A DNA stretch of 64,000 nucleotides from Marasmitruncus massiliensis (GCF_900186535.1 NZ_FYDE01000004.1:744001-808000), one strand, 5' to 3'. Counted from the stretch's first letter, positions 14,024-39,692 are shown. The notes: generated from the letters alone by a model not told the origin. Translations and numbers: made by a program.

Positions 14024-15097
14024 ATGAAAAATTTTTTCGCGTTTTTACTGGCGGCTTCTATCACAGCGGTTTCACTAAGCGGGTGCGGCGGTTCGGCTGC
14101 GCAGTCATCAGGTTCCAAAAGCGGCGATGCCGCGGACCAAGGCAGCGCGGCGTCTGCCGGCAGCGAACAGGCCTCGGAAAGTAAAGCCGGCGGAGAGTTC
14201 AAGGTGGCGATGCTGCTGCCCGGTACCATCAACGACCAGGGCTGGAATGCGGAAGCCTATAAAGCGTTACAGGCCATTGAGAGCGGTCTCGGCGCCGAAG
14301 CCGCTTACAGCGAAAGTGTGCCGCAGTCCGATTATGAGCAGGTTATGCGCGGCTATGCGAGCCAGGGGTTCAATTTCATTGTCGGTCATGGCTATCAGTT
14401 TTCCGATGCGGCAAAGATCGTAGCCAAAGAATTTCCGGATGTGGATTTCTGCATCACAAACGGTACGGAAACGCAGGAACCCAATCTGGCGACCACCAGT
14501 GTGGATTCCTATGAATTCGGATTTCTCTCCGGAACGGTTGCCGGCGTTCTGACCAAAAGTAAAAAAGTCGGCATTGTGGTTGGCGAATCCTCTCCGGTCA
14601 TGAATGCTTTCTCCGACAGCTATCTGTTCGGTGCGAGTTATCATGATTCGTCGATCACCGGCAAAAGCATCACCGCGGGTACCCTCGAGGATGCGTCCAA
14701 ATGCAAGGAAAATGCGTTGAACCTGATCGATGACGGTGCGGATGTACTGACTCAAATGGCCAATCAGGCGGGCCTTGGTGTAATCAACGCCTGTGAGGAA
14801 CGCGGCATAATGAATCTCGGCTCCAACGGGGATCAGGCTCCGGTAGCGCCGGATACGGTTGTGACCAGCGTTGTGCAGGATATGAGCAAAGCAATTTATG
14901 CCGCCGCGGAGAAATCCAAGAATGGCGAGCTTGAAGCAAAAAGCTATAATTTCGGCATCAAAGACGGCGCACTGTATCTCACTCCGTTCGGTAATTTTGA
15001 GGACAAACTCACACAGGAGCAGAAAGACGCCATTTCCGGATATCTGGAAAAACTGAAAAGCGGCGAGATCGATGTCCACGCACTGATGGGTAAATAA
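14024..15097 (+). CDS. BMP-family ABC transporter substrate-binding lipoprotein 1
   Basis: A 357-residue Bmp/Med-family (PnrA-like) extracellular binding protein; the family binds purine nucleosides and related compounds. It has a lipoprotein signal peptide with lipobox LSGC, a Ser/Ala/Gly-rich linker to about residue 55, then the periplasmic-binding-protein-like core (KVAMLLPGTINDQGWNAEAY, QVMRGYASQGFNFIVGHGYQFSDAA). The start at 14024 follows GGGGAGGG. It is the first gene of the plus-strand operon and the partner of the permeases at 15392-17333 and the ATPase at 30071-31609. A strong hairpin just after the gene may keep it at a higher level than the permeases. Confidence 0.9.
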   Translation: MKNFFAFLLAASITAVSLSGCGGSAAQSSGSKSGDAADQGSAASAGSEQASESKAGGEFKVAMLLPGTINDQGWNAEAYKALQAIESGLGAEAAYSESVPQSDYEQVMRGYASQGFNFIVGHGYQFSDAAKIVAKEFPDVDFCITNGTETQEPNLATTSVDSYEFGFLSGTVAGVLTKSKKVGIVVGESSPVMNAFSDSYLFGASYHDSSITGKSITAGTLEDASKCKENALNLIDDGADVLTQMANQAGLGVINACEERGIMNLGSNGDQAPVAPDTVVTSVVQDMSKAIYAAAEKSKNGELEAKSYNFGIKDGALYLTPFGNFEDKLTQEQKDAISGYLEKLKSGEIDVHALMGK

Positions 15098-15115
15098 GCG
15101 GTTATATCCCCAATT

Positions 15116-15391: not shown

Positions 15392-16444
15392 ATGAGTGAG
15401 AAGATAGGAAACAAAAAACTGGGACAAGTCCGGGAGATTGCAAAGCCCTTTATTTCGGTCTTTCTGGCGTTATTATGCGGCGGGATTATTATCGAGATAA
15501 TCGGGGAAAACATGGGGAACATCTATCAGATCATGTTTACCGGGGCATTCGGAAACCGGATCAATATTGCGGAAACGCTGATCAAATCAACCACATTAAT
15601 TTTTACCGGCATGAGCTATGCATTTGCCTATAAATGCGGTCTGATCAATATCGGCGCGGAGGGGCAGCTTTATATGGGAGCGGCGCTGAGCACCTGGATT
15701 GGCGTGAACCTCACCGGCCTTCCGGCAGCGGTTCATATTCCGGTTGCCCTGCTGGCGGGCTTTTTGGGCGGCGCGCTGCTGGGCGGATTGGTGGGATGGC
15801 TGAAAACACGTTTTGATGCAAATGAAGTCATCACAACCGTTATGCTCAATTATGTGGCTCAGTATCTGGTCAGCTGGCTGGTAACAGGCCCCATGAAAGA
15901 GCAGCCGGGCGACTTCCCGCAGACGGCAATGACACAGGAGTCCGCCTATCTGCTGAATATTCTGCCGGGGACCCGTTTGCATATGGGATTTGTGCTGGCA
16001 ATCATAGCGCTGGTGCTTTACGGCGTTTTTCTCTGGCATACGTCTTCCGGCTATGAAATGCGTATTGTCGGCCAAAACAACAAGGTGGCCGCGTACGCGG
16101 GGATGAACGTCAAAGGCAACGTGATGGCCGCGATGTTTATCGCGGGCGGATGCGGCGGCCTCGCCGGCGCAATGGAGATTCTTGGCGTGCAGCATCGTCT
16201 GCTGCAGAATTTCTCAAGCGGCTACGGTTTTGACGGCATAGCGGTGTCCCTTCTGGGCAGCAACAACCCTCTGGGAATTTTCTTATCCTCCATCCTGTTC
16301 GGCGCGCTGAAAAGCGGCGGCAACGCCGTCCAGATGTTTTCCAATGTGCCGGCGGCAATTATCAACATTATTCAGGCGCTTGTCATCATTTTCGTTGTCA
16401 TTGACCTGGTGTCCAAACTGTGGAGAAAGAAGATGGTGAAGTAA
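15392..16444 (+). CDS. BMP-type ABC transporter permease 1
   Basis: A 350-residue integral membrane permease of the BPD_transp_2 family (RbsC/YufP-like), with about eight to ten hydrophobic segments after a charged N terminus. The loop CGLINIGAEGQLYMGAAL and the region GLVGWLKTRFDANEVITTVMLNYVA are typical of nucleoside-type permeases such as YufP. It forms the membrane channel with the next gene, which starts 2 bases after its stop. The start ATG 15392 is preceded by AAGGGATGG at slightly long spacing. Confidence 0.92.
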   Translation: MSEKIGNKKLGQVREIAKPFISVFLALLCGGIIIEIIGENMGNIYQIMFTGAFGNRINIAETLIKSTTLIFTGMSYAFAYKCGLINIGAEGQLYMGAALSTWIGVNLTGLPAAVHIPVALLAGFLGGALLGGLVGWLKTRFDANEVITTVMLNYVAQYLVSWLVTGPMKEQPGDFPQTAMTQESAYLLNILPGTRLHMGFVLAIIALVLYGVFLWHTSSGYEMRIVGQNNKVAAYAGMNVKGNVMAAMFIAGGCGGLAGAMEILGVQHRLLQNFSSGYGFDGIAVSLLGSNNPLGIFLSSILFGALKSGGNAVQMFSNVPAAIINIIQALVIIFVVIDLVSKLWRKKMVK

Positions 16445-16445
16445 C

Positions 16446-17333
16446 ATGGACAATTTCAATTTGATCGGAAATCTGCTGCTGTCTGTGATCCGCACAGCGA
16501 CTCCGATTCTGTTTGTCGCACTGGGCCTGCTGGTGATGCAGTCCTCCGGCATTATCAACATGGGGGCTGAGGGCATGATGCTGCTGGGCGCGTTCGTAGG
16601 CGTGATCGGTACCTACTGGACCGGGAATGTCTGGCTGGGTGTGCTGTGCGCAATGGCGGCCTCGGGGCTTGCCAGTCTGCTGTTCAGTTACTTTGCGCTG
16701 ACCTTCCAGGTGAATCAGGTGGTGCTGGGAGTTGCCTTCAATATCCTGTTCGGCGGCGTTACGACAACGCTCAGCCGAAGCGTGTTCGGGCTGAATTCCG
16801 CGCCGCCCAAGATCGACGGCTTTCATGATGCGCTTTTTGGCTTGCCGCTTCCGGTATACATTGCATTTGGACTGGTTCTGGCAATCCATCTGTTCTTTTA
16901 CAGAACCAAACCCGGCCTGAAAATCCGCGCAGCCGGTGAATATCCGCAGGCAGTGGAAGTAGTCGGTCTGTCAGTCGTTAAGATCAGGCTTCTCAGCAGT
17001 CTTCTGGGCGGTTTGTTTATCGGTTTTGGGGGAGCTTTTCTGTCCTTGGGGCAGTTGGATTTCTTCATTGAAAATATGTCCAACGGGCGCGGCTATATCG
17101 CGCTGGCGGCTGTTTCATTCGGAAAATTCACCCCAATCGGAACGATGCTGGCAGTGCTCCTGTTTGGCGGGGGCGAAGCGCTGCAATACCGTTTGCAGGC
17201 CGGCAACAGTATCATTCCTTACCAGTTTGCGCTGATGATCCCCTATGTGATGACAATTATCGCGCTGGCCCTGTTTATCCGCAACGCATCCGGACCGGCG
17301 GCGCTTGGCAAACCGTATCAAAAGAGCCATTAA
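16446..17333 (+). CDS. BMP-type ABC transporter permease 2
   Basis: A 295-residue membrane permease, shorter partner of permease 1 (YufQ-like). It has the characteristic SGIINMGAEGMMLLGAFVGV segment near the N terminus, and an internal duplicate region with FGGAFLSLGQLDFF and GRGYIALAAVSFGKFTP. Together with permease 1 and the distant ATPase it would import a nucleoside-like or heterocyclic compound. It is followed 14 bases later by the alcohol dehydrogenase gene, so both belong to one transcript. Confidence 0.92.
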   Translation: MDNFNLIGNLLLSVIRTATPILFVALGLLVMQSSGIINMGAEGMMLLGAFVGVIGTYWTGNVWLGVLCAMAASGLASLLFSYFALTFQVNQVVLGVAFNILFGGVTTTLSRSVFGLNSAPPKIDGFHDALFGLPLPVYIAFGLVLAIHLFFYRTKPGLKIRAAGEYPQAVEVVGLSVVKIRLLSSLLGGLFIGFGGAFLSLGQLDFFIENMSNGRGYIALAAVSFGKFTPIGTMLAVLLFGGGEALQYRLQAGNSIIPYQFALMIPYVMTIIALALFIRNASGPAALGKPYQKSH

Positions 17334-17347: not shown

Positions 17348-18496
17348 TTGAAAAAATTTTTCCTTCCTGTCGATGTCCGTTTCGGAGAAGGCGCTGTAAA
17401 TCTGCTTGAAAAAATAGTGGGGCCGGACGACCGTGTGTTTGTTGTAAGCGATCCCGGTCTGGTTGCCGCGGGAATCTCCGGCAAAGTAACGGCAATTCTC
17501 GACAGAACCGGCTGTGCTTTTACAGTTTATTCCGATGTGACGCCGAATCCGACATCCGACCTTGTCGCATCGTCGATGGAGGTGCTGAGAGGATATCAGC
17601 CGACGAAAGTCATCGCGGTCGGCGGCGGAAGCCCGACCGATCTGGGCAAAATTCTTTCCGCTCTGGCAACCAATTCGCGGCCGCTGGCGGACTACCAGTG
17701 GAACGGCTTTGATTTTGAAGCGCCCTCGCTGCCCTTTATCGCAATTCCGACAACAGCCGGAACCGGTTCCGAAGTGACCCGCTGTGCGGTGATCGGGGAC
17801 AAAGAGGTAAAAAAAGGTATCAATTCCGACAAATTGTTTGCCGCGTATGCGATCATTGACCCGGAACTGATGACTGGTCTGCCTCCTTATCTGACCGCGA
17901 CAACCGGCATGGATGCGCTTACGCATGCAATCGAAGCCTTTACCGGACTCGGTTCCAGTCCTGTTACGGACGCGTGGGCAAAAGAGGCAATCTCGCTGAT
18001 CGGAAAATCGCTCTGGACTGCCTGTGCGGATGGCTCAAATGTGAAAGCGCGCACGGACATGGCGCTCGCATCGATGCTGGCCGGTGTGGCGATGGACCAG
18101 GCGGGACTTGGAATGGTTCACGCGATGTCCGGCCCGCTGTGTACGCACTATCATCTGGCGCATGGGGAAGCGAATGCCCTGCTGCTGGAATATGTCATGC
18201 GCTTCAATTTAATGTCCTGCGCAAAAAAATATCGAACCGTTGCCGAACTGCTCGGCTGCGACACAACGGGGCTCAGCGATTTTGAAGGCGGCGCTCTGGC
18301 TGTTGAAGCAGTTTCCAGACTGTTTGCCGAGACCGGGTGTCCTGTGGACTTGAAAAAATACGGGGTAACCGCTGATGCCGCCGACACCATAGCGGAAGGA
18401 ACCTACAAAATGTATATGATTGCAAATAACCCGCGCAAGCCTTCCACAGCGCAGTGCAGACAGGTTTTCCTCGAAATGCTTGCGCACAACCAATAA
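17348..18496 (+). CDS. Iron-containing alcohol dehydrogenase
   Basis: A 382-residue group III alcohol dehydrogenase, NAD(P)H-dependent. It has GGGSPTD (nucleotide binding), TTAGTGSEVTR, and the metal ligands in MDALTHAIEAF and in the MVHAMSGPLCTHYHLAHGEAN block (one Asp and three His). The start is TTG 17348, 10 bases after AAGGAG (17332-17337). The family reduces or oxidises small alcohols and aldehydes such as ethanol, 1,3-propanediol, lactaldehyde or 4-hydroxybutyrate, so the substrate is open. In this operon a small aldehyde released by the FolB-like aldolase, or one derived from the heterocycle, is a possible substrate (inference). Confidence 0.9.
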   Translation: MKKFFLPVDVRFGEGAVNLLEKIVGPDDRVFVVSDPGLVAAGISGKVTAILDRTGCAFTVYSDVTPNPTSDLVASSMEVLRGYQPTKVIAVGGGSPTDLGKILSALATNSRPLADYQWNGFDFEAPSLPFIAIPTTAGTGSEVTRCAVIGDKEVKKGINSDKLFAAYAIIDPELMTGLPPYLTATTGMDALTHAIEAFTGLGSSPVTDAWAKEAISLIGKSLWTACADGSNVKARTDMALASMLAGVAMDQAGLGMVHAMSGPLCTHYHLAHGEANALLLEYVMRFNLMSCAKKYRTVAELLGCDTTGLSDFEGGALAVEAVSRLFAETGCPVDLKKYGVTADAADTIAEGTYKMYMIANNPRKPSTAQCRQVFLEMLAHNQ

Positions 18497-18560
18497 TATT
18501 TGCTCTGTGAAATCGATGCAGGGGGATATAAAAGATTATCCAGAGAGAGGTATGAGAAAG

Positions 18561-19601
18561 ATGAAAAAAGTTCTTGCAATCGTCATGAGCACGGCAATGT
18601 CCCTTTCCTTATTGGCAGGCTGCGGCGCCTCCAAAGCGGAAAGCACCCCGTCGCAGCCGTCCGGGTCTGCCGCTGAAAGCGTACCGGCTAAAAAAGAATT
18701 TAAAATCGCGCTGATTGTGCCCGGCACCGTCAATGACCAGGACTGGTCGCAGCTGGCCTATGACGCGGTCAAATCGGTTTCGGACGATTTGGGCGCGACC
18801 CTTAATTACTCTGAAAAAGTCGCGAGCTCCGATTACGACCAAATTCTGCGCGGTTACGCTTCTCAGGGTTACAACGTTGTTTTCGCTCATGGAAATGAAT
18901 TTTCCGACGCCGCTAAAATTGTCGCGGCTGATTTCCCGGAAACACAGTTTATCATCACTTCGGGCGCGGAGAGCGTCAAACCGAACTTCAACGGCTTTCA
19001 GGTCGGCGGAATTGATTCCGGCTTTATGACCGGCGCAATCGCCATGATGGTATCCGAAACAGGCAAGGTCGGAGCGATCGGCGGCGTGGAGATGCTCCCG
19101 ATCATCCAGTTTATGAAAGGCTTCGAGGCCGGAGCGAAGTATATCAATCCGGAGGGCGAGGTTACGACAATGTTCACCGGTTCCCTCGAAGACGCGGCCA
19201 AAGCGAAGGAAGCCGCGTTTGCAATGATTGAGTCCGGCGTGGATGTCCTCTCACAGAATGCCAATACCGCTTCGCAGGGGGTTATCATGGCCTGCCAGGA
19301 AAAGGGGCTGCTGAATGTCGGTGCGGTTTCCGACCAGCGCGTTTTCGCTCCCGACACCGTGTTCATCTCGGTCAATTCCGACATGATGACCGCAATCGGC
19401 GCAATCATCAGGCAGGCTTACAACGGTCAGCTGAGCGGTGAGGTCAAAAACCTTGGCATTAAAGAGGGTGCAATCCTGCTGACGGATTACAGCGAGGAAG
19501 CGTTTGCCCGCATTCCGGATGAAACGAAAGCGAAAATCCAGGAACTGTATGATCAGATTGCCTCCGGTGAAGTAGACCCGGTTGCTCTTGCCGGTAACTG
19601 A
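18561..19601 (+). CDS. BMP-family ABC transporter substrate-binding lipoprotein 2
   Basis: A 346-residue second Bmp/PnrA-like binding protein with signal peptide and lipobox LAGC, a Ser/Pro linker, and a core that closely parallels binding protein 1 (IALIVPGTVNDQDWSQLAYDAV, ILRGYASQGYNVVFAHGNEFSDAAKIV). The two are clearly paralogues. ATG 18561 is chosen because GAGAGG lies 10 bases upstream; ATG 18552 is possible and adds three residues. No second permease set is present, so both binding proteins probably feed one transporter and widen its substrate range, or one serves as a sensor. Confidence 0.9.
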   Translation: MKKVLAIVMSTAMSLSLLAGCGASKAESTPSQPSGSAAESVPAKKEFKIALIVPGTVNDQDWSQLAYDAVKSVSDDLGATLNYSEKVASSDYDQILRGYASQGYNVVFAHGNEFSDAAKIVAADFPETQFIITSGAESVKPNFNGFQVGGIDSGFMTGAIAMMVSETGKVGAIGGVEMLPIIQFMKGFEAGAKYINPEGEVTTMFTGSLEDAAKAKEAAFAMIESGVDVLSQNANTASQGVIMACQEKGLLNVGAVSDQRVFAPDTVFISVNSDMMTAIGAIIRQAYNGQLSGEVKNLGIKEGAILLTDYSEEAFARIPDETKAKIQELYDQIASGEVDPVALAGN

Positions 19602-19603: not shown

Positions 19604-20824
19604 ATGGACAAAACGTTTGACCTGCTTTTGCAGGGTGTAAACCTGTTCGACGGTGCAACCGGCATGGATGTGGGAATCCGGGACGGCAAAATCGCGGCTG
19701 TGGAGGGAAACATCCCTCCGCAGGCCGCGGCCGAAGCCTTTGACTTTCGTGGAAAGCTGCTGATCCCCGGCTTTGTCGATTCCCATACCCATCTTGACAA
19801 GGCTCTGACCATTCAGGATGAAGAAGCCGACGGACTGGTGGACGCGGTCAATTTGTTCCGCAATTATCAGAACCGGATTCCGAAAGGGAAAATCGCGGAG
19901 GATGTCAAGCGGCGCGCGGCGCGGGTGCTGGATATGGAGATCGCACACGGTACCACCTGTATCAAAACTCATTTGCTGTGCGATGAAGTCTGGGGCATGG
20001 AAAGCGTTTACGCGCTTGACGAGCTCCGGCGCGAATATGCCGGCCGCATCACCCTCCAGCTGATTGTACCGTGGTGCGAGGCAAACGCGGAGGAACTGGA
20101 CAGAGCCTGCCGCAAAGGCATCATCGACTACTTTGCGGGTTACGCCCACCTCTGCGATGATTTTCGCACCGAATTGGACGGTATTTTTGCCCGGGGCGAA
20201 AAATACGGGATTCCGCTCGACCTGCATGTCAACGAATCCGACGTCGGAAATATTGACGAGTTTCTCTATATCCAACAAAAAACGATGGATCTGCACATGG
20301 ATGGACGCGTCAATTGCAGCCATGTCACCGCGATGTGCGCGGTGGATGATGAGACCGCTCAAAAGGGCATTGCACTGGCCGAGAGAGCACGCACCAACAT
20401 CATCACGCTGCCTTCCTGCAACATGTATCTGATGGGAAGGCACGACCGCCAGCCGGTGCGGCGGGGCGTGACCCGGGTCCGTGAGTTTTTGCAGGCAGGT
20501 GTGAATGTCGCCTATGCTTCCGACAATATCCGCGATCCGTTCCGGCCGTTCGGCAACGGCGATATGCTGGAGGAAGGCTTATTTACCGCGCAGGTTCTCC
20601 AGTATGGCACCGCAAGCAAACTGGCGGAGGTTCTGCGGATGGGAACTTTTCGGGCGGCGCGCAATGCCCATTTATCTGATTACGGGCTTACCGTGGGGTG
20701 TACGGCCGATCTGGCGGTTCTGGACGCAGAAACCCCGCGCGAAGCACTTGTTACCCGGGCGCAAAGGCTGCTGGTTCTGAAAAACGGCAAGGCAGTCAGC
20801 CGAAGCGGCGTACTGGTGCCATGA
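19604..20824 (+). CDS. Cytosine deaminase-like amidohydrolase
   Basis: A 406-residue metal-dependent amidohydrolase of the CodA/AtzC branch. Metal and catalytic motifs seen are VDSHTHLDKA near residue 60, LHVNESD around 205, CSHVTAM around 240, and the Asp in ASDNIRDPFRPFGNGD near 305. The family deaminates cytosine, isoguanine, melamine-type rings or other exocyclic-amino heterocycles. The spacing of HxH, H, H and D is complete, so it should be active. It begins 2 bases after the binding protein stop. In this operon it could remove an exocyclic amino group from a purine, pterin or aminoimidazole intermediate (inference). Confidence 0.85.
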   Translation: MDKTFDLLLQGVNLFDGATGMDVGIRDGKIAAVEGNIPPQAAAEAFDFRGKLLIPGFVDSHTHLDKALTIQDEEADGLVDAVNLFRNYQNRIPKGKIAEDVKRRAARVLDMEIAHGTTCIKTHLLCDEVWGMESVYALDELRREYAGRITLQLIVPWCEANAEELDRACRKGIIDYFAGYAHLCDDFRTELDGIFARGEKYGIPLDLHVNESDVGNIDEFLYIQQKTMDLHMDGRVNCSHVTAMCAVDDETAQKGIALAERARTNIITLPSCNMYLMGRHDRQPVRRGVTRVREFLQAGVNVAYASDNIRDPFRPFGNGDMLEEGLFTAQVLQYGTASKLAEVLRMGTFRAARNAHLSDYGLTVGCTADLAVLDAETPREALVTRAQRLLVLKNGKAVSRSGVLVP

Positions 20825-20906: not shown

Positions 20907-21890
20907 ATGCAACAATATAGTGTAAACGAAGCCGCGGCCGCAATCATCGAGCGGCAGGTGCTTTCAGACACCGAACGGCTTCAGATCAAAGCCAAAAGGC
21001 TTGCAAACGGCGCAACGGTGCTTGATTTCGGAGTGCATAGCAAAGGCGGGTTTCTTGCGGGAAAGTACTTTGCGGAAATCGGCATGGGTGGCCTTGGACG
21101 CCTGACTTACGGTACCATGCGGCTGAGAGACCATCTGGTGCCATCGGTGCAGATCTTCGTGGAGGCTCCCGCGGTCTGTGAGATGGCTTCGCATGTCGCA
21201 TTCTGGAAACTTCCGTACCGCGGCGGGCAGGCAGTGATCTCCGGCCCGGTACGTGCAATCCGCGGTGCGGATCAGTTCGCCCGCGCGGTTGGTTACAGAG
21301 ACCCGGCGCCGTCAAAAGCGGTCGCCTGCATCCAGACCGGGGAACTTCCCGACGAGGAACTTTGTGAATTGATCAGCGAAGGCTGCGGCGTTTCCTGCGA
21401 AAACCTTTACCTGCTTGCGGCGCGTACGGGCTGTATGGCCGGCGCGGTGCAGGTCTGCGCGCGTAATGTGGAGCAGTCGATGCCGACGGTATATGATCAT
21501 GGGTTTCCAATGGATAAAATTGTAGAGGCGAGCGCTGTCACACCGCTGGTCTCAATGACGGACGATGAATCCGTTGCATACGGGCGGGTCAATGACTGCC
21601 TGATCTACGGGCAGGAAACAAATCTTTATGTGCGCTGTGATGACAAAGAGATCACAGGAATGCTGGACCAGCTTCCGTTTTCAAAAAACGACAGCAGTGT
21701 TTATGGGGTTCCATTTTATGAACTGTTTGCAAAATGCGGCAATTCATGGGCGAATGTCCCGCGCGACTGGGACGCGCCCTGCAAAATCAATTTTATCAAT
21801 CTGACGACAGGGCATGTCTTTTCAACCGGGCAGATTTGCACAGATGTTCTGGAACGGTCTTTTATGGGAGAAAGAGGGATGAAACTATGA
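20907..21890 (+). CDS. mch: Methenyltetrahydromethanopterin cyclohydrolase (Mch) homologue
   Basis: A 327-residue protein recognisably homologous over its full length to archaeal Mch, which hydrolyses the five-membered amidinium ring of methenyl-H4MPT. Matching blocks include the N terminus SVNEAAAAIIERQ, the ANGATVLDFGV strand, GMGGLGRL, SGPVRAI, ELPDEEL, GRVNDCLIYG, and the C-terminal YGVPFYELF with INLTTGHVFSTGQI. The Arg-x-x-Glu pair reported as essential in Archaeoglobus Mch (Arg183/Glu186) appears as R186 and E189 in CARNVE. ATG 20907 follows AAAGGAGG. No other H4MPT gene is seen nearby, so it may act on folate or open a ring of the operon's own substrate. Confidence 0.85.
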   Translation: MQQYSVNEAAAAIIERQVLSDTERLQIKAKRLANGATVLDFGVHSKGGFLAGKYFAEIGMGGLGRLTYGTMRLRDHLVPSVQIFVEAPAVCEMASHVAFWKLPYRGGQAVISGPVRAIRGADQFARAVGYRDPAPSKAVACIQTGELPDEELCELISEGCGVSCENLYLLAARTGCMAGAVQVCARNVEQSMPTVYDHGFPMDKIVEASAVTPLVSMTDDESVAYGRVNDCLIYGQETNLYVRCDDKEITGMLDQLPFSKNDSSVYGVPFYELFAKCGNSWANVPRDWDAPCKINFINLTTGHVFSTGQICTDVLERSFMGERGMKL

Positions 21891-31619: not shown

Positions 31620-33032
31620 ATGACGGATTATATTTTGACCAATGCAGTAATTGTGACCGTAGACCCCGCGCGCCGTGTCCTGTTTGACGGCGCTTTGGCG
31701 GTTGAAAACGGGCGGATTGCGGTAATCGGCAGGACCGAAGAACTGATCAGGCAATCTCCGGATACCCGCAGAATTGACTGTACCGGCAAAGCCGTTTTTC
31801 CGGGGTTTATCAATACGCATAACCATCTGTTCCAGACTTTGCTGAAAGGGCTTGGCGACGACATGGTGCTGTCCGACTGGCTGCGCACCATGACCTTTCC
31901 GGCAGCCCGGTTCCTGACTCCGGAGGACAGCTGCCATGCCGCGATGCTCGGCTGCGCCGAGGCTGTCCGCAGTGGTGTGACAACTATGACGGATTACCTC
32001 TATCTGCATCATAAGGAGCACCTCACGGACGGTGTCGCAAAAGCGATGACGGAACTGAAAATCCGCGGCGTCATCGGCAGCGGGGCGATGGACGCCGGTC
32101 TGGACGCAGGCGTCTGCCCCGAGATTACCCAGACTCCTGAAGTGGTGGAGCGCGAAATGACGGAACTGTTTGACCGTTATCACAATTCGGAAGAAGGCCG
32201 GCTGAAAGTCTGGGCGGCGCCGGCGGCACTTTGGTCCAATTCCGAAAAGATGCTCCGGATGCTGTGGGAACTTACCAGTTCCTATCACAGCGGCATTACC
32301 ATCCATGTATCTGAAACACCGTTCGACCGGAAGGCCACGGAAGCGCTGCACGGGTGCGCAGGGACGGACTGTCTGGAAAAGCTGGGCATTCTGGGGCCGA
32401 ATGTACTGATGGTACATTGTGTTTACCTCAATCAAAAGGACATCGCTGCCGCGAAGCAATATGATCTGAAGGTTTCGCACAACGCGGTCAGCAACATGTA
32501 TCTGTCCTCCGGTGTCGCGCCGGTTCCGGCAATGCTTAAAGCGGGCGTCACAGTCTCCCTGGGGGTGGATGGCGCCGCTTCCAACAACGGCCAGGACATG
32601 CTGGAACTGATGAAATCCACCGCGCTTCTGCATAAAGTGTCCACGCTGGACCCGACGGTTATCACTGCGGAAAAGGTGCTGGAAATGGCTACGATTGACG
32701 GCGCGCGTGCTCTGGGCATGGAAGACGAGGTTGGTTCGCTTGAGGTCGGGAAAAAGGCTGACTTTGTAGTATTTAACCCTTATCTCAGCCCGAAATCGAT
32801 TCCAATGCACAACCCGGTTTCCACGCTGGTCTATTCTTCGACTATGGCAAATATCGAATCGGTCGCGGTGGACGGACGCTTTATTCTGGAAAACGGTGTA
32901 CTGACGACGGCGGATGAGCGAAAAATATTAGAAGACGGGTACCGCGCGGCGGAACAGCTCGCGTCACGTGCGGGAATAACGAATCGGGGGGCGGGGCATC
33001 CGTGGTGTTCCGTTTACGCGGAAAACAGATAA
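31620..33032 (+). CDS. SsnA/AtzB-like aminohydrolase 1
   Basis: A 470-residue amidohydrolase of the ATZ/TRZ and guanine-deaminase group. The motif set is complete: GFINTHNHLFQ (HxH), IHVSETP (His and catalytic Glu), VHCVYL (His), SHNAVSN and GVDGAASNN (Asp). The family removes amino groups or halogens from heterocycles, for example guanine or 8-oxoguanine deaminases. ATG 31620 follows AAAGGAGG and lies 11 bases after the ATPase. In the purine context, deamination of a guanine-like ring is likely; the exact substrate is open. Confidence 0.88.
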   Translation: MTDYILTNAVIVTVDPARRVLFDGALAVENGRIAVIGRTEELIRQSPDTRRIDCTGKAVFPGFINTHNHLFQTLLKGLGDDMVLSDWLRTMTFPAARFLTPEDSCHAAMLGCAEAVRSGVTTMTDYLYLHHKEHLTDGVAKAMTELKIRGVIGSGAMDAGLDAGVCPEITQTPEVVEREMTELFDRYHNSEEGRLKVWAAPAALWSNSEKMLRMLWELTSSYHSGITIHVSETPFDRKATEALHGCAGTDCLEKLGILGPNVLMVHCVYLNQKDIAAAKQYDLKVSHNAVSNMYLSSGVAPVPAMLKAGVTVSLGVDGAASNNGQDMLELMKSTALLHKVSTLDPTVITAEKVLEMATIDGARALGMEDEVGSLEVGKKADFVVFNPYLSPKSIPMHNPVSTLVYSSTMANIESVAVDGRFILENGVLTTADERKILEDGYRAAEQLASRAGITNRGAGHPWCSVYAENR

Positions 33033-33139: not shown

Positions 33140-34231
33140 ATGGGATATCGCTTGTTCGGGATAGAGATGCAGTCGCCGTTTATTATCGGCTCGGGACCGC
33201 TGAGCTATGGGGCGCCTGGCCTTATCCGTCTGCATCAGGCGGGAGCGGGGGCCGTTGTTACGAAAACCATTAATCTTGAAGCGGCTGAGAACGCAGTGAA
33301 CCATATGGCGAGCTGCGGGATGAACACGCTGATCAACTGCGAAAAATGGTCGGATTACGGCCCGGAACGCTGGATAGCAAACGAGATACCGCAGGCCAAA
33401 GCCGCGGGAGTGGTGGTCATTGCGAGTATCGGCGTTTCCCTCTGCGCCTGGCCGGAACTTGTCACAAGGATGATTGAGGCGGGCGCCGACATGATCGAGC
33501 TTGTGTCATACGATGAAACCGAGCTGAAAACGATGGCTGAAACGCTGCGCCCATACTGTACGGTTCCGATGATTGCGAAACTGTCCGCCAACTATCGGGA
33601 TATGCTGGAGGTTGCCGGCGCATGCAGGAAAGCGGGATGCGCCGGGTTTACCGCATGTGATTCCATCGGCCCGGTCATGAAAATTGATATTGAAACCGGC
33701 AGGCCGGTGCTGGGAGGTAAAGAGGGGAAAGGCTGGCTGTCCGGCGCGATGATCAAACCGATTATTCTGCAGAAAATTGTGGAGCTGCGCCAGAAGTTCG
33801 ATTGCCCCATCATCGGCCTTGGCGGCATTACGACCTGGCAGGACGCTATCGAGTTCACGATGGCGGGCGCGGACGCGCTGGGCATCTGCACCGCGCCGAT
33901 CCTGATGGGCGTTGAAACAATCGGGAAGCTGAACAGGGGGATTGAGCGCTATCTTGACGATCACGGGTATGGCGGCCTGGACACTATCCGGGGGATGGCA
34001 CTCTCCCATTTGCCGGAACAGGAGGCGACGGGCAGTTTTCATATGGGATTTCAGAAGGAAAGCTGCATCGGCTGCGGCCGCTGCGTAACGGTCTGCGCTT
34101 ATGGGGTCCGGACACTGGATGAAGATGGGAATATGGCGGTTGATGAGGCGGCATGCCGCAGCTGCGGGCTGTGCGTATCTGTCTGCCCGAAGAATTGCAT
34201 TACAGTGAATAGGGGGCTGGTTTCATGCTGA
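33140..34231 (+). CDS. PreA/dihydroorotate dehydrogenase-like flavoprotein with two [4Fe-4S] clusters
   Basis: A 363-residue protein with an FMN-binding TIM barrel (residues 1-305) and a C-terminal ferredoxin domain with CIGCGRCVTVCAYG and CRSCGLCVSVCPKN. PreA and class 1 dihydroorotate dehydrogenases reduce or oxidise pyrimidine rings. FMN phosphate-binding residues (GLGGITTWQDAIEF) and the substrate-side CDSIGPVMKIDIETG are kept. The loop that normally carries the catalytic Cys (NxSCPN or SCPHGM) is missing: the barrel runs MIELVSYDETELKTM instead. It may therefore reduce a different ring or work in the reverse sense. There is no PreT partner; electrons may come from ferredoxin. Confidence 0.85.
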   Translation: MGYRLFGIEMQSPFIIGSGPLSYGAPGLIRLHQAGAGAVVTKTINLEAAENAVNHMASCGMNTLINCEKWSDYGPERWIANEIPQAKAAGVVVIASIGVSLCAWPELVTRMIEAGADMIELVSYDETELKTMAETLRPYCTVPMIAKLSANYRDMLEVAGACRKAGCAGFTACDSIGPVMKIDIETGRPVLGGKEGKGWLSGAMIKPIILQKIVELRQKFDCPIIGLGGITTWQDAIEFTMAGADALGICTAPILMGVETIGKLNRGIERYLDDHGYGGLDTIRGMALSHLPEQEATGSFHMGFQKESCIGCGRCVTVCAYGVRTLDEDGNMAVDEAACRSCGLCVSVCPKNCITVNRGLVSC

Positions 34232-35409
34232 CAAAACAAAGGGAGCAAGCGGTCATTCATTTGTGCCAAAAGCTTGTGCAGATTCAGAGCTATTCCGGTG
34301 AAGAAGGTGGTGTTGCCGGGGAACTGGCGGGCTTTTTCCGTGAGCGGGGGTTCGACGAAGTCAAGGTAAATGAATACGGCTGCATCATTGCCTGTGTTCA
34401 CGGCAAACACCCCGGCCCGAAAATTCTGTTTGACGGCCATATTGATACCGTTCCGGTTACGAACGCTGAAGAGTGGCTCCACCCGCCATTTGGAGGAGAA
34501 ATCCACGACGGCAGAATTTACGGACGCGGCACTTCCGACATGAAAGGCGCTGTCGCCGCCATGGCCTGCGCGATTGCAGACTTTGCGCAGGATACCGGAT
34601 GCGACTTCTCCGGCTCGCTCTATTTGGCGGGCGTGGTGCATGAGGAATGCTTTGAGGGAGTTGCCGCCCGTTCGGTCAGCACGCAGGTCAAACCTGACTA
34701 TGTCGTGATCGGCGAGGCCTCTCAGCTCAATGTGAAAATCGGCCAGCGTGGGCGCGGCGAAATCAAGCTGGAGGTTTTCGGCAAGCCGGCCCATTCCGCC
34801 AATCCGGAAAAGGGAATCAACGCGGTTTATAAAATCGCGCGTGTCATCGAGGAAATCCGCAAGCTGGCGCCCACGGAACACCCGGTGCTCGGCAAAGGAA
34901 TTTTGGAACTGACCGACATCAAGTCCAGCCCATATCCGGGGGCATCGGTGGTGCCGGAATACTGCATGGCGACTTACGACCGCCGCCTGCTGGTGGGGGA
35001 GACCAAGGAAACGGTGCTGGCGCCCCTGCAGGCACTGCTTGACCGGATGATGGCGGAGGATCCGGAACTGCGCGCGAAAGTTTCCTACGCGCACGGAGAG
35101 GAGCATTGCTATACCGGAAACAAAATTGAAGGCGAACGCTTCTTCCCGGGGTGGCTGTATCAGCCTGACGAACCGTTTGTCCAGGCGGTTGTCGGCAAGC
35201 TGGAGTCAAAGGGTTTTTCGCCCGAAATCACGCAATATAATTTCTGCACAAACGGAAGCCACTACGCGGGCGAGGCGGGAATCAAAACATTCGGCCTTGG
35301 CCCTTCGCGCGAAAACCTTGCGCATACCATCAATGAGTATATCGAGGTCGATCAGCTGACCGGAGCCGCGGAATGTTATTACGCTGTCATTCAGGCGCTG
35401 CTTGGATGA
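34225..35409 (+). CDS. YgeY-like M20 family hydrolase
   Basis: A 394-residue M20/ArgE/DapE-type zinc hydrolase that overlaps the flavoprotein gene by 7 bases. Metal-site motifs seen are FDGHIDTVP (His, Asp), YGRGTSDMKGA (Asp), VVHEECFEG (Glu-Glu) and the late His in NGSHYAGEAG. The sequence is of the YgeY type, a hydrolase found with hydA, ssnA and xdh homologues in the E. coli yge/ygf and gut bacterial purine or uric acid gene clusters (recalled knowledge). It probably cleaves an amide or carbamoyl product of ring opening. Confidence 0.85.
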   Translation: MLTKQREQAVIHLCQKLVQIQSYSGEEGGVAGELAGFFRERGFDEVKVNEYGCIIACVHGKHPGPKILFDGHIDTVPVTNAEEWLHPPFGGEIHDGRIYGRGTSDMKGAVAAMACAIADFAQDTGCDFSGSLYLAGVVHEECFEGVAARSVSTQVKPDYVVIGEASQLNVKIGQRGRGEIKLEVFGKPAHSANPEKGINAVYKIARVIEEIRKLAPTEHPVLGKGILELTDIKSSPYPGASVVPEYCMATYDRRLLVGETKETVLAPLQALLDRMMAEDPELRAKVSYAHGEEHCYTGNKIEGERFFPGWLYQPDEPFVQAVVGKLESKGFSPEITQYNFCTNGSHYAGEAGIKTFGLGPSRENLAHTINEYIEVDQLTGAAECYYAVIQALLG

Positions 35410-35439: not shown

Positions 35440-36747
35440 ATGTATGATCTGGAAATTGCGGGCGGATGCCTTTATCAGGACGGAAAATGGACTTCTGGAA
35501 ATCTGTTTATTAAAAACGGCAGGATTGAGCAGATTTCCTCCGCGCACCTTGAGGCAAAAGCGGTTTATGATGCGGCGGGCGCATCGGTGATTCCCGGGCT
35601 GATTGACAGCCATGTGCATTTGCAGGCGCAGAACGGCCGCTTTACCTCGGCCGACAGCTTTTATTCCGGCACCGCGGCGGGCGCGCTGGGGGGCGTTACC
35701 ACCGTGATTGATTTTCTGGACGAGGCTTGCGATGCTGGGGAAGCTGTCCGGAATTTCGAACTTCGTATGTCGCTTGCGAAAGACAGCGTGGTAGACTATG
35801 CGTTTCACTGTGGAGTACGGCAGCCAAAAAACGTTCCGGAACTTGCAAAAGCCATGCTGGAACGGGGAATTCCCTCCTTTAAGGTTTATACCACCTATAA
35901 GCAGGCGGGGATTTTTTCCGATGATCTTCATATCGGGGAACTGCTGAAACGTACCTCCGACAGAGATGTGATGCTGCTTTCCCATACGGAAAACGACGAT
36001 TTGATCGATTGGGGCTTCAAGCGGATTGAGGATTATGCGCGGCGCAGGCCGGTTATTTGTGAACTTTCCAAAGCGGTGCAGCTTGCGGAAATGACCGATT
36101 ATTACGAAGGTATGACCTATATGGTACATGTCAGCTGCGGCAGCACGGTGCAGGAGCTGAACAAACGGTTCGGGGATATCCTCCATCGTAGGTTTTTTCT
36201 CGAAAGCTGCCCGCACTATTTCCTGTTTGACGATTCCGTGTATTCCGGAAAAGACGCCGCGCTGTATACCATGATCCCGCCCCTAAGGAGCGGCAGCGAG
36301 CGGGAAAAACTGGTCGGCGCGTTTGATGAGATTGATACTGTCGGAACAGACCACTGCCCTTATACCCGGGCGGAAAAGCAGAACTTGGATATTGATGCCA
36401 TCCCCATGGGGGTTAACGGGCTGGGGAACAGCTTTCTTCAGATGTACCGGCTGTTCGGCGACCGGGTGATCGACCGGTTTACACGCAATCAGGCGCAGAT
36501 TCACGGGCTGTTTCCGCAAAAGGGAATCCTTTGCGAGGGTGCGGACGCGGATATCGCTATCTATGAGGAAATTGCCCCGCGTCCCGGTTTTCGCCTCTAC
36601 GGGCGGTCGGACTACTCTCTCTATTCGGGCTGTGAGGAGAACATTTTAATCCGGACGGTGCTCAGCCGCGGAGAGTTTGTGGTAAAGGACGGTGTGCTGT
36701 GCGCGCATCAGGGAAAATTTGTCCGCCGGAAACTGGATTTTACGTGA
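35440..36747 (+). CDS. hydA: Hydantoinase/dihydropyrimidinase-like cyclic amidohydrolase
   Basis: A 435-residue cyclic-amide hydrolase. All binuclear-site motifs are present: DSHVHLQ (HxH), the bridging Lys in SFKVYTTYK, SHTEND, HVSCGST and GTDHCPYT (Asp). It is slightly shorter than classical dihydropyrimidinases (about 460-480). The enzymes open hydantoin, dihydropyrimidine or related cyclic ureides. It is placed between a YgeY-like hydrolase and another aminohydrolase, so it likely performs one of the ring-opening steps on the hydroxylated heterocycle. Confidence 0.88.
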   Translation: MYDLEIAGGCLYQDGKWTSGNLFIKNGRIEQISSAHLEAKAVYDAAGASVIPGLIDSHVHLQAQNGRFTSADSFYSGTAAGALGGVTTVIDFLDEACDAGEAVRNFELRMSLAKDSVVDYAFHCGVRQPKNVPELAKAMLERGIPSFKVYTTYKQAGIFSDDLHIGELLKRTSDRDVMLLSHTENDDLIDWGFKRIEDYARRRPVICELSKAVQLAEMTDYYEGMTYMVHVSCGSTVQELNKRFGDILHRRFFLESCPHYFLFDDSVYSGKDAALYTMIPPLRSGSEREKLVGAFDEIDTVGTDHCPYTRAEKQNLDIDAIPMGVNGLGNSFLQMYRLFGDRVIDRFTRNQAQIHGLFPQKGILCEGADADIAIYEEIAPRPGFRLYGRSDYSLYSGCEENILIRTVLSRGEFVVKDGVLCAHQGKFVRRKLDFT

Positions 36748-36777
36748 CGAAACGGATAAAGCAGGGGAGGAATGGCA

Positions 36778-38085
36778 ATGTTTGCAGTCAAAGCAAAATG
36801 GCTGGTCTGCTCCTATGACAGGGTTTATCAAAATTACGGCCTGATATGCGACAAAGATCAGATTCATGCGGTGCTGCCAAACGCGGAGATTGATCAACTG
36901 CACAGGGACGGAAAATTGACGCATGTGATCGACCGCAGCGCATCGATTTTGCTGCCCGGCTTTGTCGACGCCCATATTCACCTGTACGGCGTCCTTTCCC
37001 ACGGCATACCGAACCATGTGACGGTGCATAATTTCGAAGAATTCCTGAAGCTCTACTGGTGGCCGATGGTGGAGGACCGCGTACGCAAAGCGCAGGTGCT
37101 GTCCACCGCGCGTTCCGGCGCGGCGGAGCTGCTGCGATCCGGCGTCACAGCGTTCTGCGACACGCTGGAAGCCCCTTTCTGCGAACCGGACACGCTGGTG
37201 GAACAGGGCAGGCTGCTTGAAGAAATCGGCCTGCGCGGCATCGTTTCGCTGGAAAGCTCCCAGCGGGCGGGCAGCCAAAACGGGGAAGACTGCCTTGCGC
37301 AGAACGTACGCGCCGCCCGCTGGCTGAAAGAGCACGCAAGGCTGGTACGCGGGGCTGTCAGCACCCACACCACCTTTACCTGTACCCCTGAGTTTATCTG
37401 CAGGGCAAAGGCGATGAGCCGTGAGGAGGGTGCCTTGTTTCAGTTCCATCTGTCCGAAAGCGTCTATGAGCCTTCCGTAAATCCCCGGCCAGCCGGAATT
37501 TATGATGCCTGCGGTGCGCTGGATGCCGATACGCTGGCGTCCCAGTGCGTGCAGGTGGACGCGGAAGAAATCCGGCTGCTTGCAGAAAGAAAGGTAAAAA
37601 CCGTTCATATGCCGCTGAGCAACTGCGAGGTCGGGGGAGGGATTGCCCCTGTCCCCTCGATGCTGGAATCGGGAATCTGCGTCGGCCTTGGCAGCGATGG
37701 ATATATCAACGACTTCTTTACGGTGATGAAAGCGGCGTTTCTGATTCATAAGGCAAAGGAGCAATCCGCCGCCGTAATGCCCGCTTCCCTGGTTTTTCGC
37801 ATGGCGACCGAATTTGGCGCGCGCTGCCTTGGCTATGATAACCTCGGCAGGTTGAGGGCGGGATATCTTGCCGACTTTATCGTTCTGGACGATCAGTTTT
37901 TAACGCCGGTGACCCCGGAGAACATCTTCGACCAGTTGGTTGTCTATGGAAAAAAAGAGTATGTCAGAGACGTTTTTGTAAACGGCCGGCAGCTGATGGA
38001 AAGCCGCCGCCTGCTCACGCTGGATGAGGATGCCGCAAACAGGCAGGTTCGGGAGACAGCGAAAAAATTCTGGGAGGGCCTGTAA
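36778..38085 (+). CDS. SsnA/AtzB-like aminohydrolase 2 with altered active site
   Basis: A 435-residue amidohydrolase related to the aminohydrolase at 31620-33032. It keeps FVDAHIHLYG (HxH), FQFHLSES (His, Glu), VHMPLSN and GLGSDGY (Asp). The His expected in the motif VHCVYL is replaced: here the segment reads ASQCVQV, with Gln in the His position. In guanine-deaminase-type enzymes that His (about H279) helps activate water and bind substrate. The protein may thus act on a different bond or be weakly active. ATG 36778 is preferred (AGGGGAGG, spacing 7); ATG 36772 overlaps the binding site. Confidence 0.82.
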   Translation: MFAVKAKWLVCSYDRVYQNYGLICDKDQIHAVLPNAEIDQLHRDGKLTHVIDRSASILLPGFVDAHIHLYGVLSHGIPNHVTVHNFEEFLKLYWWPMVEDRVRKAQVLSTARSGAAELLRSGVTAFCDTLEAPFCEPDTLVEQGRLLEEIGLRGIVSLESSQRAGSQNGEDCLAQNVRAARWLKEHARLVRGAVSTHTTFTCTPEFICRAKAMSREEGALFQFHLSESVYEPSVNPRPAGIYDACGALDADTLASQCVQVDAEEIRLLAERKVKTVHMPLSNCEVGGGIAPVPSMLESGICVGLGSDGYINDFFTVMKAAFLIHKAKEQSAAVMPASLVFRMATEFGARCLGYDNLGRLRAGYLADFIVLDDQFLTPVTPENIFDQLVVYGKKEYVRDVFVNGRQLMESRRLLTLDEDAANRQVRETAKKFWEGL

Positions 38086-39692
38086 TGCGTGTTCGGATGT
38101 CAGACCCGCACAGTACGGGAAGATTTATCATTAGAAACGGTTGGATTGTGGACGGGAGCGGCGCCCCCGGTTTCTGGGGGGAACTGCTTATTGATCATGG
38201 GAAAATCATGCGGGTTTCCGAAAAGGTGGAAGCAGAGGATGCGGTAGTCATTGACGCGGACGGCGGGATTGTATGTCCGGGCTTTATTGATACCCACAGC
38301 CACAGCGGGCCACATTTGTTCAGCGACCCGCTGATGGAACCGAAACTCCGTCAGGGCATCACGACTGAAATTCTGGGGCAGGACGGGATTTCCCTCGCGC
38401 CGGTATCCGCCGGGCATCTTCCGGTCTGGAAGGCGCAGGTGGAAGAAATTGAAGGGCTTGACCCCAAGATCGATTGGGCGGCGTGCGGTTCGGTTGCGGA
38501 CTACCTGGCCCGGATGAAACGGCTCGGCGTCAGCGGGAACTATGGGTATCTCGTGCCCCACGGAAACCTGCGTATGGCGGTCATGGGGATGGAAAACAGA
38601 TTCGCGGACAGCAACCAGATGGAAGCGATGTGCGCGCTGCTGGAACGGGAGATGCAATCAGGTGCGCTGGGGTTGTCCACCGGCCTGATCTATGCCCCCT
38701 GCTGTTTTGCAGATACAAAAGAATTAATCGCGCTTTGCAAGGTTGTGGCGCGCCGCGACGGGGTGTTTGCTGTTCATCAGCGCAGCGAGGCTAACGAGAT
38801 TCTTTCCTCTATGGAGGAGCTTCTTAAAATCGCCCGGGAAAGCGGTGTCCGGCTGCATATTTCCCATTTTAAAATCTGTGGAAAACAAAACTGGAATAAG
38901 GCCGAACGAATTTTTGCGCTGCTCGATGCAGCGAAACAAGACGGAATCCGCGTCACCTTCGACCTTTACCCCTATACAGCCGGATGTACGGCTTTGAGCG
39001 TCCTGCTGCCGCCCTGGGCACATGAAGGCGGCAGGGAACAGCTGTGCGAACGACTGCGTGATCTTCCCACACGCAGGAAAATGAAAGAGGAAATTCTGGA
39101 AACGAATAGCCAATGGGATAATTTTGTGGAGTTTGCCGGTCTGGACGGCATTGTCATCACAAAATCGCAGAATGCAAAGTTCATCGGCAGGAACCTGCTG
39201 GAGCTGGGGGAGATGCAGGGGAAAGATCCGCTTGATGCGGTGTTTGACCTGCTCCTCTCTGAAAGCGGGGTCGGAATCATCGATTATTACGGGAGTGAAG
39301 ACGTACTTGATTCGCTGATTCAGCGGCCGGAACAGAACTTCTGCACCGACGGGGAAGTCTGCGCACATCCTCATCCGCGCCTCTACGGCAGCTTCCCGCG
39401 GGTTCTTTCCCGCTTTGTGCGGGAGAAACGGCTGCTGACACTGGAACAGGCGATTCACAAAATGACGGGTCTGCCCGCTGAAACATTTTCGCTGTCAGGC
39501 CGGGGGCTGATTCAGGAGGGAAGCTGCGCCGATCTGGTGATATTTGACCGATTTGAGATACAGGACCGGGCAACGTATCTCGATCCGGCACTTTACAGCA
39601 GTGGAATTCACTTGGTCATGGTCAATGGAGTTCCTGTCTTGCTCAACGGTGAAAACCGGAAAAAACCTGCGGGAGAAATCCTGTGCCGGTAG
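38085..39692 (+). CDS. D-aminoacylase-like amidohydrolase
   Basis: A 535-residue amidohydrolase of the N-acyl-D-amino-acid deacylase group and the last gene of the large operon. It shows GFIDTHSHSG (HxH), GITTEILGQDGISLAP, GLSTGLIYAP, HQRSEANE, HISHFKICGK and CTDGEVCAHPHPR. Where classical D-aminoacylases have GNCG with a metal-binding Cys, this protein has GQDG, a variant form; its specificity may be towards carbamoyl or other N-acyl groups. The ATG overlaps the previous stop (TAATG). It could finish hydrolysis of a ring-opened intermediate (inference). Confidence 0.85.
   Translation: MRVRMSDPHSTGRFIIRNGWIVDGSGAPGFWGELLIDHGKIMRVSEKVEAEDAVVIDADGGIVCPGFIDTHSHSGPHLFSDPLMEPKLRQGITTEILGQDGISLAPVSAGHLPVWKAQVEEIEGLDPKIDWAACGSVADYLARMKRLGVSGNYGYLVPHGNLRMAVMGMENRFADSNQMEAMCALLEREMQSGALGLSTGLIYAPCCFADTKELIALCKVVARRDGVFAVHQRSEANEILSSMEELLKIARESGVRLHISHFKICGKQNWNKAERIFALLDAAKQDGIRVTFDLYPYTAGCTALSVLLPPWAHEGGREQLCERLRDLPTRRKMKEEILETNSQWDNFVEFAGLDGIVITKSQNAKFIGRNLLELGEMQGKDPLDAVFDLLLSESGVGIIDYYGSEDVLDSLIQRPEQNFCTDGEVCAHPHPRLYGSFPRVLSRFVREKRLLTLEQAIHKMTGLPAETFSLSGRGLIQEGSCADLVIFDRFEIQDRATYLDPALYSSGIHLVMVNGVPVLLNGENRKKPAGEILCR

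Follow-up and report, generated by a model that had tools for sequence, protein, structure and literature searches.

The stretch of DNA analysed here, referred to as the window, comprises 64,000 nucleotides of Marasmitruncus massiliensis (NZ_FYDE01000004.1), whose genome (G000; 3.76 Mb) is 99.97% complete. The subject of this work is an operon at positions 14024-39692 of the window, consisting of 22 genes that all lie on the + strand and whose products probably import a pteridine with a polyol side chain at C6, such as neopterin, monapterin or a relative, and break it down anaerobically (Table 1). Gene families were assigned by profile searches with Pfam and NCBIfam, and these agree with the list of families given in an earlier note on the same DNA (the original prediction). 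With the start codons chosen here, the 21 intergenic distances are 294, 1, 14, 55, 2, 82, -4, 33, 1, -8, 42, -1, -4, 2, 49, 10, 107, -7, 30, 24 and -1 bases. The largest falls after the first gene, and all others range from -8 to 107. The recomputed distances bear out the earlier description of 22 co-directional genes with largest gaps of 294 and 107 bases. The accompanying statement that gaps mostly stay below 35 bases has to be qualified, as four more (42, 49, 55 and 82) exceed this length.

Table 1. Genes of the operon and features of its surroundings (positions counted from the first base of the window)
Feature	Position	Strand	Basis
Predicted promoter TTGACA-18-TAAAGT	13883..13912	+	consensus scan only
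5' leader hairpin with U run, attenuator-like	13932..13969	+	17 pairs (next longest in scan 9); leader z=-4.87
BMP/PnrA-family ABC substrate-binding lipoprotein 1	14024..15097	+	Pfam PF02608, E=1.7e-62
ABC permease 1 (BPD_transp_2)	15392..16444	+	PF02653
ABC permease 2	16446..17333	+	PF02653
Fe-containing alcohol dehydrogenase	17348..18496	+	PF00465/PF25137; L042 relative 62%, near ALDH and FolB relatives
BMP-family binding protein 2	18552..19601	+	PF02608
CodA/AtzC-like amidohydrolase, candidate pterin deaminase	19604..20824	+	PF07969; L042 relative 50%
Mch homologue (methenyl-H4MPT cyclohydrolase family), candidate ring hydrolase/cyclohydrolase	20907..21890	+	PF02289, E=7e-80
MchS, short Mch-fold paralogue, probable partner subunit	21887..22519	+	predicted structure; position beside mch
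FMN-reductase-family flavoprotein	22553..23179	+	PF03358; L021/L022 relatives 59-60%, directly 5' of mch
FolB (dihydroneopterin aldolase family), Gln at Glu74 position	23181..23633	+	TIGR00525, 91.2 bits vs cut-off 72.15
UbiD-family decarboxylase	23626..24963	+	TIGR00148, above cut-off; nearest solved chain 6h6v
XdhA-like molybdopterin subunit	25006..27333	+	NF043082, 582.5 bits, under cut-off 780
XdhB-like FAD subunit	27333..28103	+	TIGR03312/pucC matches, weak
XdhC-like 2Fe-2S subunit	28100..28558	+	NF043084, 129 bits, under cut-off 217
Aldehyde dehydrogenase (ALDH)	28561..30021	+	TIGR01804, 481 bits, under cut-off 668.6; L042 relative 73%
ABC ATPase, two ATPase domains	30071..31609	+	profile search
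SsnA1, TRZ/ATZ-type aminohydrolase, beta-6 His kept	31620..33032	+	TIGR03314, 195.0 bits, under cut-off 455.5
PreA/PydA-like flavoprotein with 4Fe-4S domains (UacX family)	33140..34231	+	PF01180 + Fer4; PRK08318, 186.8 bits, under cut-off 335
YgeY-family M20 hydrolase	34225..35409	+	PRK13004, 489.7 vs 321, above; TIGR03526, 248.3 vs 321.5, below
Hydantoinase/dihydropyrimidinase-like protein (HydA)	35440..36747	+	TIGR02033, 235.2 bits, under cut-off 393.25
SsnA2, SsnA-like amidohydrolase, Gln replaces beta-6 His	36772..38085	+	TIGR03314, 194.9 bits, under cut-off 455.5
D-aminoacylase-like amidohydrolase (UacY family)	38085..39692	+	PF07969
Matching attenuator-like hairpin of the divergent xdh unit	13697..13739	-	20 pairs; leader z=-7.51
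Divergent molybdenum hydroxylase cluster: XdhC, XdhA, 2Fe-2S, FAD subunit, second XdhA	7157..13558	-	
UbiX flavin prenyltransferase	6430..7023	+	only genome member above TIGR00421 cut-off

The FolB of the operon resembles the FolBs of folate synthesis in passing the family cut-off and in keeping Glu22, Tyr54 and Lys100. It differs from them in having Gln in place of Glu74, in lying within a catabolic operon, and in belonging to a genome in which FolK and FolP were not found. Genome searches returned a single FolB match in each of G000, G767 and G768, the latter two being draft genomes of unstated completeness, and no match to FolK or FolP in any of the three. Because FolK and FolP were not found there, FolB does not appear to serve folate synthesis in these genomes, and for the sole copy in G000 this role was set aside. 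Gln occupies the position of Glu74 in all four single-domain FolBs from related clusters (window, L022, L039, and L036, which is the same locus as L042) and, as read by eye, in both halves of the tandem FolB of L037. The FolBs of other genomes of the class have Glu at this position in 29 of 29 cases, these being the best 29 of 108 matched. The L037 tandem was left out of these controls, which include a genome (G301) also used in the comparison of cluster FolBs; its FolB adjoins FolK and FolP and retains Glu. In passages of PMC11328599, Glu74 is counted among the substrate-binding or catalytic residues and hydrogen-bonds 6-hydroxymethyl-dihydropterin. The exchange of a carboxylate for an amide would suit a lumazine ring, in which an oxo group replaces the 2-amino group. 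In L042, relatives of the iron-containing alcohol dehydrogenase (Fe-ADH, 62%), ALDH (73%) and FolB (61%) are encoded by three consecutive genes with ALDH in the middle, an adjacency that links FolB to the handling of the aldehyde it would release. FolB requires a 1,2-dihydroxyalkyl side chain, which is missing from folates, and its second product, glycolaldehyde, is a natural kind of substrate for a pair of alcohol and aldehyde dehydrogenases.

The Mch homologue belongs to a family that acts on a methenyl-tetrahydropterin and whose chemistry is the formation or hydrolysis of a cyclic amidine. A ring opening by this homologue is plausible as a candidate role. Like the Mch of the tetrahydromethanopterin (H4MPT) pathway, the operon protein passes TIGR03120 (236 bits against a cut-off of 228.8), aligns with solved archaeal Mch over almost its full length and retains the active-site Arg and Glu; at the site aligned to this Glu, the 4gvr/4gvs chain has Gln where 4gvq has Glu. 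Its gene context sets it apart from that pathway: mch stands next to a short paralogue without the motif and among genes for heterocycle breakdown, and the genome gave no Ftr match. Mch is rare: within the class it was found in 2 of 391 genomes and within the order in 3 of 394, M. massiliensis being counted in both. Ftr (PF01913), the only H4MPT one-carbon enzyme sought beyond Mch, was found in none of five genomes tested, with two archaeal controls positive, while a FolD-type match was obtained in all five. There is thus no sign of an H4MPT one-carbon pathway, Mch is not needed for the one-carbon units of folate, and a role in one-carbon metabolism was set aside. The gene following mch, here called mchS, has no match in Pfam or NCBIfam. 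Its AlphaFold model has a mean predicted local distance difference test (pLDDT) score of 81.8, Foldseek gave six matches with E<=0.001, every one an Mch chain, and the QVCARNVE stretch of Mch is missing from the protein. In 12 of the 12 loci found in a genome scan, mchS adjoins mch (in L032 by position, with no BLAST match). The protein is a short paralogue with a predicted Mch fold and probably a partner subunit of Mch.

For the remaining enzymes, family assignments can be set beside solved structures. The nearest to the CodA-like protein are N-isopropylammelide amidohydrolase (AtzC-like) and cytosine deaminase; in the PDB, the PreA/PydA-like protein lies nearest to dihydropyrimidine and dihydroorotate dehydrogenases, and the D-aminoacylase-like protein to D-aminoacylase (1rjp) and N-acyl-D-glutamate deacylase (3gip, also 3giq). 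The chain nearest to UbiD, 6h6v, is a furan-dicarboxylate decarboxylase, and the cysteine motif of the protein of the flavin mononucleotide (FMN) reductase family, judged by eye, resembles that of iron-sulfur flavoproteins. The exchange of the beta-6 His for Gln in SsnA2 is common to the window and L022, the one relative compared, the L021 copy being cut by the end of the locus. The beta-6 calls follow the strand assignment of amidohydrolase metal ligands.

The set of enzymes invites comparison with the reductive breakdown of urate, to which SsnA, YgfK, HydA, YgeX, YgeY and YgeW belong and which in the Clostridioides difficile type also involves UacX (PF01180-type) and UacY (PF07969-type), as described in PMC12507026. 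With this cluster (xdhD-ygfM-ygfK-ssnA-hyuA-ygeW-yqeA-ygeY-ygeX in Escherichia coli; UacX/UacY in C. difficile) the operon shares, according to the same source, the enzyme families for molybdenum hydroxylation, PydA-type reduction, SsnA- and hydantoinase-like ring opening, and D-aminoacylase- and YgeY-like hydrolysis. At family level, almost every member of the C. difficile-type set has an equivalent in the operon: the molybdenum hydroxylase, a UacX-family protein, two SsnA-like proteins, a HydA-like one, a UacY-family one and YgeY. The likeness to UacX and UacY is one of family (PF01180 with Fer4; PF07969) rather than of direct sequence comparison. In contrast to the urate cluster, the operon has no YgeX, its SsnA and HydA proteins stay below the cut-offs, and FolB, Mch, MchS, UbiD, the CodA-like protein, Fe-ADH and ALDH are added. 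The original prediction had remarked that Mch, FolB and UbiD were unfamiliar from urate clusters, which fits the main text of PMC12507026, where none of these words occurs.

A separate urate-type cluster lies on contig C3 of the same genome. It holds SsnA, YgfK, HydA, a selenium-dependent xanthine dehydrogenase (TIGR03311), YgeX (TIGR03528), YgeY and YgeW, together with an AA_kinase-family gene that looks like a carbamate kinase. All seven members tested lie above curated cut-offs, including SsnA with 635.2 bits (TIGR03314, 455.5) and HydA with 607.6 bits (TIGR02033, 393.25); the cluster is not called complete, as the XdhD type (TIGR03313) was not sought genome-wide. The SsnA1, SsnA2 and HydA of the operon share 26-30% identity with the enzymes of C3. 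The presence of this separate cluster, which passes the family cut-offs, speaks against urate, and urate was set aside as the substrate of the operon, whose SsnA and HydA proteins fall short of them. The claim that ygeX, ygeW and a carbamate kinase are missing holds for ygeX and ygeW within the 22 genes, but the genome carries both elsewhere, with the AA_kinase gene. The operon appears to be a paralogous gene set that serves a related ring, and looks like an assembly of relatives of urate-degrading enzymes with FolB and Mch borrowed from pterin-cofactor metabolism.

A scan of genomes with an Mch alignment yielded 12 loci in eight genomes, ten of which were annotated in one scan and the remaining two read as L015 and L017. 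The alignment (A6) combines the window with 11 of the 12 loci, the place of L030 (= L017) being left out and that of L029 entered as L015. In the comparison with the window, only proteins whose best match is a window protein with at least 42 bits were counted. Two metagenome-assembled genomes (L021 with L039; L022 with L040) contain a common core of the BMP-type ATP-binding cassette (ABC) transporter, the FMN-reductase-family protein, Mch with MchS, XdhABC, the PydA-like, HydA-like and SsnA-like proteins, YgeY and FolB. Since two other genomes hold this core, the operon is more than a chance run of genes. Identity to the window in L021 and L022 is 63-64% for Mch and 66-68% for YgeY, and 70% for FolB in L022; both loci carry relatives of SsnA as well as of SsnA2. 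Of the neighbours Mch, FolB, UbiD and Xdh named in the original prediction, Mch, FolB and Xdh recur in both genomes, and UbiD was not seen in the parts examined. In L021 (6848-7834), L013 (17781-18809) and L019 (15854-16882) a family of about 330 amino acids, 52-57% identical, is encoded that is a candidate pteridine reductase; its L013 member has a match to RibD_C (dihydrofolate reductase fold).

Elsewhere, Mch keeps other company. The Pseudoflavonifractor genomes G769, G771 and G770 carry Mch and MchS, FolB was not found in them, and some of their loci hold a DeoC-type aldolase, an FGGY-like kinase (by eye), zinc alcohol dehydrogenases and the BMP-type ABC transporter. In L015 and L023-L025, Mch and MchS are accompanied by kinase-like, DeoC-type aldolase and zinc alcohol dehydrogenase genes, with the transporter in L015, L024 and L025; the substrate there may be a polyol-bearing one that is handled without FolB. 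A second clostridial type of Mch, without MchS, occurs in L013 and L019 next to XdhCA, a short-chain dehydrogenase, E1, E3 and an SsnA1-like protein (E3 of L013 by eye; E2 recognised in L013 but not in L019). None of these heterocycle genes lies within the 20 kb of L020 around the Mch of G615. Both kinds of Mch are found in G772 (L041-L043) on one 58-kb contig (C65), which bears several Mch copies, a tandem FolB, two XdhCA pairs, an E1/E2/E3-like set (by eye) and HpaB-family and FabA-like proteins. This island possibly unites several pteridine routes in one 1.7-Mb genome. The varied side-chain enzymes around Mch suggest one ring with differing side chains.

The evidence supports the original prediction of anaerobic breakdown of an N-heterocycle. 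Of the candidate substrates it had proposed, pterins are favoured because of the sole FolB with Gln74, the failure to find FolK and FolP, Mch, and the side-chain enzymes, while purines via the 4-aminoimidazole route are less favoured. The substrate, the succession of reactions and the function of each enzyme are inferred from the sequences; the pteridine class of the ring draws on several sequence facts, and less confidence attaches to how the steps follow one another, to what Mch does and to whether UbiD takes part. In the proposed mechanism, the BMP-type ABC transporter would import the pteridine, and a deaminase (the CodA-like protein or SsnA1) would convert the 2-amino-4-oxo ring to a lumazine (2,4-dioxo). 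The FMN-reductase-family protein may provide the 7,8-dihydro form, from which FolB with Gln74 would split the side chain by retro-aldol cleavage, giving 6-hydroxymethyl-dihydrolumazine and glycolaldehyde. Fe-ADH and ALDH would process glycolaldehyde, oxidise the remaining carbon to a 6-carboxylate, or both, and UbiD, with a cofactor from UbiX, would remove this carboxylate. The bare ring would then be handled like yanthine in the reductive urate pathway, through the molybdenum hydroxylase, a PydA/UacX-like reduction, SsnA- and hydantoinase-like opening, and UacY- and YgeY-like cleavage of ureido or N-acyl bonds; Mch with its partner MchS would open the pyrazine half. It is tempting, though somewhat doubtful, to see in the operon a full anaerobic pterin pathway, the first of its kind, in which FolB reads lumazine through Gln74 on a deaminated neopterin-type substrate, UbiD with prenyl-FMN removes the 6-carboxylate, and a heteromeric Mch/MchS opens the pyrazine before the urate-like reductive set finishes the pyrimidine half.

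Other substrates have to be weighed against a polyol-bearing pteridine. The operon could be a second purine operon of the reductive C. difficile type, in which guanine, 8-oxoguanine or a methylated purine would be broken down and FolB, Mch and UbiD would play side roles. Six enzymes (Xdh, UacX, SsnA, HyuA, UacY and YgeY) match the variant described in the passages of PMC12507026 at family level, and the operon YgeY passes PRK13004. The cluster on C3, however, passes every cut-off that SsnA1, SsnA2 and HydA of the operon fail. FolB, too, has no known substrate in a purine pathway, and such an operon appears unlikely. In the Rabinowitz route from xanthine through 4-aminoimidazole to formiminoglycine, UbiD could act as the 4-amino-5-imidazolecarboxylate decarboxylase and Mch in an imidazole or one-carbon step, and UbiD, the deaminases and the amidohydrolases would suit steps of the route. 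UbiD was, however, unseen in the examined parts of both syntenic clusters, and FolB, the PydA-like protein, YgeY and the D-aminoacylase are left unexplained. This route is regarded as very improbable, a judgement weakened by being reached without direct comparison with the route's own genes.

Two further proposals stay closer to pterins. If the operon degraded folates, reduced folates or H4MPT-like cofactors, Mch would act on a methenyl- or formyl-tetrahydropterin, as its family substrate suggests. Bacterial folate breakdown involves a pterin deaminase with lumazine-6-carboxylate as a candidate intermediate, according to passages of PMC9513972, and this intermediate is a plausible substrate of UbiD. 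An M20 peptidase of the YgeY family is present, so that release of glutamate is conceivable. On the other hand, handling of p-aminobenzoate was recognised in none of the 22 genes by general profile searches, no dedicated search having been made, and folates do not offer the side chain that FolB needs; cofactors of this kind are improbable substrates. In the remaining proposal, a pteridine would be contracted to a purine, with Mch forming the five-membered ring and UbiD decarboxylating it to xanthine for purine breakdown. Old work by McNutt reportedly describes a tetraoxypteridine isomerase that gives xanthine-8-carboxylate, and the term xanthine-8-carboxylic was not found in the 10 papers listed of 2,542 literature matches. 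The cyclic amidine chemistry of Mch, the position of UbiD three genes from MchS and the urate-type cluster in the genome would agree with a contraction. The ring-opening enzymes of the operon would nevertheless be needless if xanthine were the product, and UbiD was unseen in the related clusters; a contraction is the most far-fetched of these proposals.

Several observations tell against breakdown of a polyol-bearing pteridine. The pass of Mch over TIGR03120 is narrow, and none of the 22 genes encodes a YgeX-type lyase, leaving the operon without a terminal lyase. The examined parts of L021 and L022 showed no UbiD, Fe-ADH, ALDH, CodA-like protein or D-aminoacylase, which leaves the UbiD and aldehyde steps outside the conserved core, and the HydA, SsnA1 and SsnA2 proteins of these loci are just 30-35% identical to those of the window. 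FolB was found in three of six Mch genomes searched (eight in total); the other three have Mch and MchS without it, and the two are consequently separable. The absences in the draft genomes G767 and G768 carry little weight. G772 possesses FolK and FolP, yet only Gln-type FolBs, so that a folate role of this type is possible there. The single-domain cluster FolBs are 61-71% identical, and with such close relationship the shared Gln may be one inherited change; in addition, 6 of the 29 control FolBs deviate in the Glu22 column itself. For the candidate pteridine reductase, the RibD_C match of the L021 member fell short of the E 0.001 threshold, and the structure model of the RibD_C-like protein was uninformative (pLDDT 38). 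Finally, the support for this reading comes from sequence and structure prediction.

The surroundings of the operon offer indications of its regulation. In both the operon and the divergent xdh unit, a hairpin of 17-20 base pairs with a U run begins about 20 bases past the predicted promoter. Promoter-like sites are common, with 20 in the stretch against 12.0 +/- 3.3 in shuffled sequences. Both units look attenuated (by attenuation or antitermination) and may form one regulon. Because the divergent cluster bears a matching 5' hairpin, the functional unit probably reaches beyond 14024-39692. Upstream of relatives, no hairpin of at least 17 pairs was found in 10 stretches scanned, and hairpins of 9 pairs occur in L022 and L042. 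A known riboswitch in the leader was rejected, as no Rfam family reached the gathering threshold in the window; a search of 13560-14030 by E-value gave only four sub-threshold matches, all to eukaryotic RNA families. The gene for UbiX, which would make the cofactor of UbiD, lies 17 kb upstream of ubiD and 7 kb upstream of the operon. Farther out, nitrogenase cofactor genes occupy 22-6183 (+), namely NifE, a NifN-NifB fusion and a homocitrate synthase split over two genes (C-terminal part at 4408-5367, N-terminal part at 5377-6183). The region 44523-59947 contains DctM-type and NMT1-like transporter genes, two aconitase-family/MmgE-PrpD sets (-) and a citrate lyase alpha/beta pair (+).

A search of the open literature by titles and the beginnings of abstracts, with subscription papers mostly outside it, found no gene cluster for degradation of the pteridine ring in anaerobes and no catabolic operon with Mch or FolB. 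The nearest described process is the deamination of folic acid by Variovorax sp. F1 with carboxypeptidase G and a pterin deaminase (PMC9513972). It resembles the proposed pathway in the deamination of the pterin ring and in lumazine-6-carboxylate as a candidate intermediate; it differs in that Variovorax sp. F1 is a soil bacterium isolated on folic acid and that the source passages contain no genes for breaking the pteridine ring (PMC9513972). The operon turns oxygen-independent breakdown of this ring into a testable gene set, and Gln in place of Glu74 offers a one-residue marker of candidate catabolic FolBs. In such Clostridia the labels "dihydroneopterin aldolase" and "methenyl-H4MPT cyclohydrolase" may mislead if they are read as signs of folate synthesis or of H4MPT metabolism. 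Pterins occur widely, and two of them, neopterin and biopterin, belong to the immune and cofactor metabolites of the host. M. massiliensis is a relative of gut Clostridia; should the operon encode the full anaerobic pterin pathway, gut bacteria that carry it would consume neopterin and biopterin of the host.

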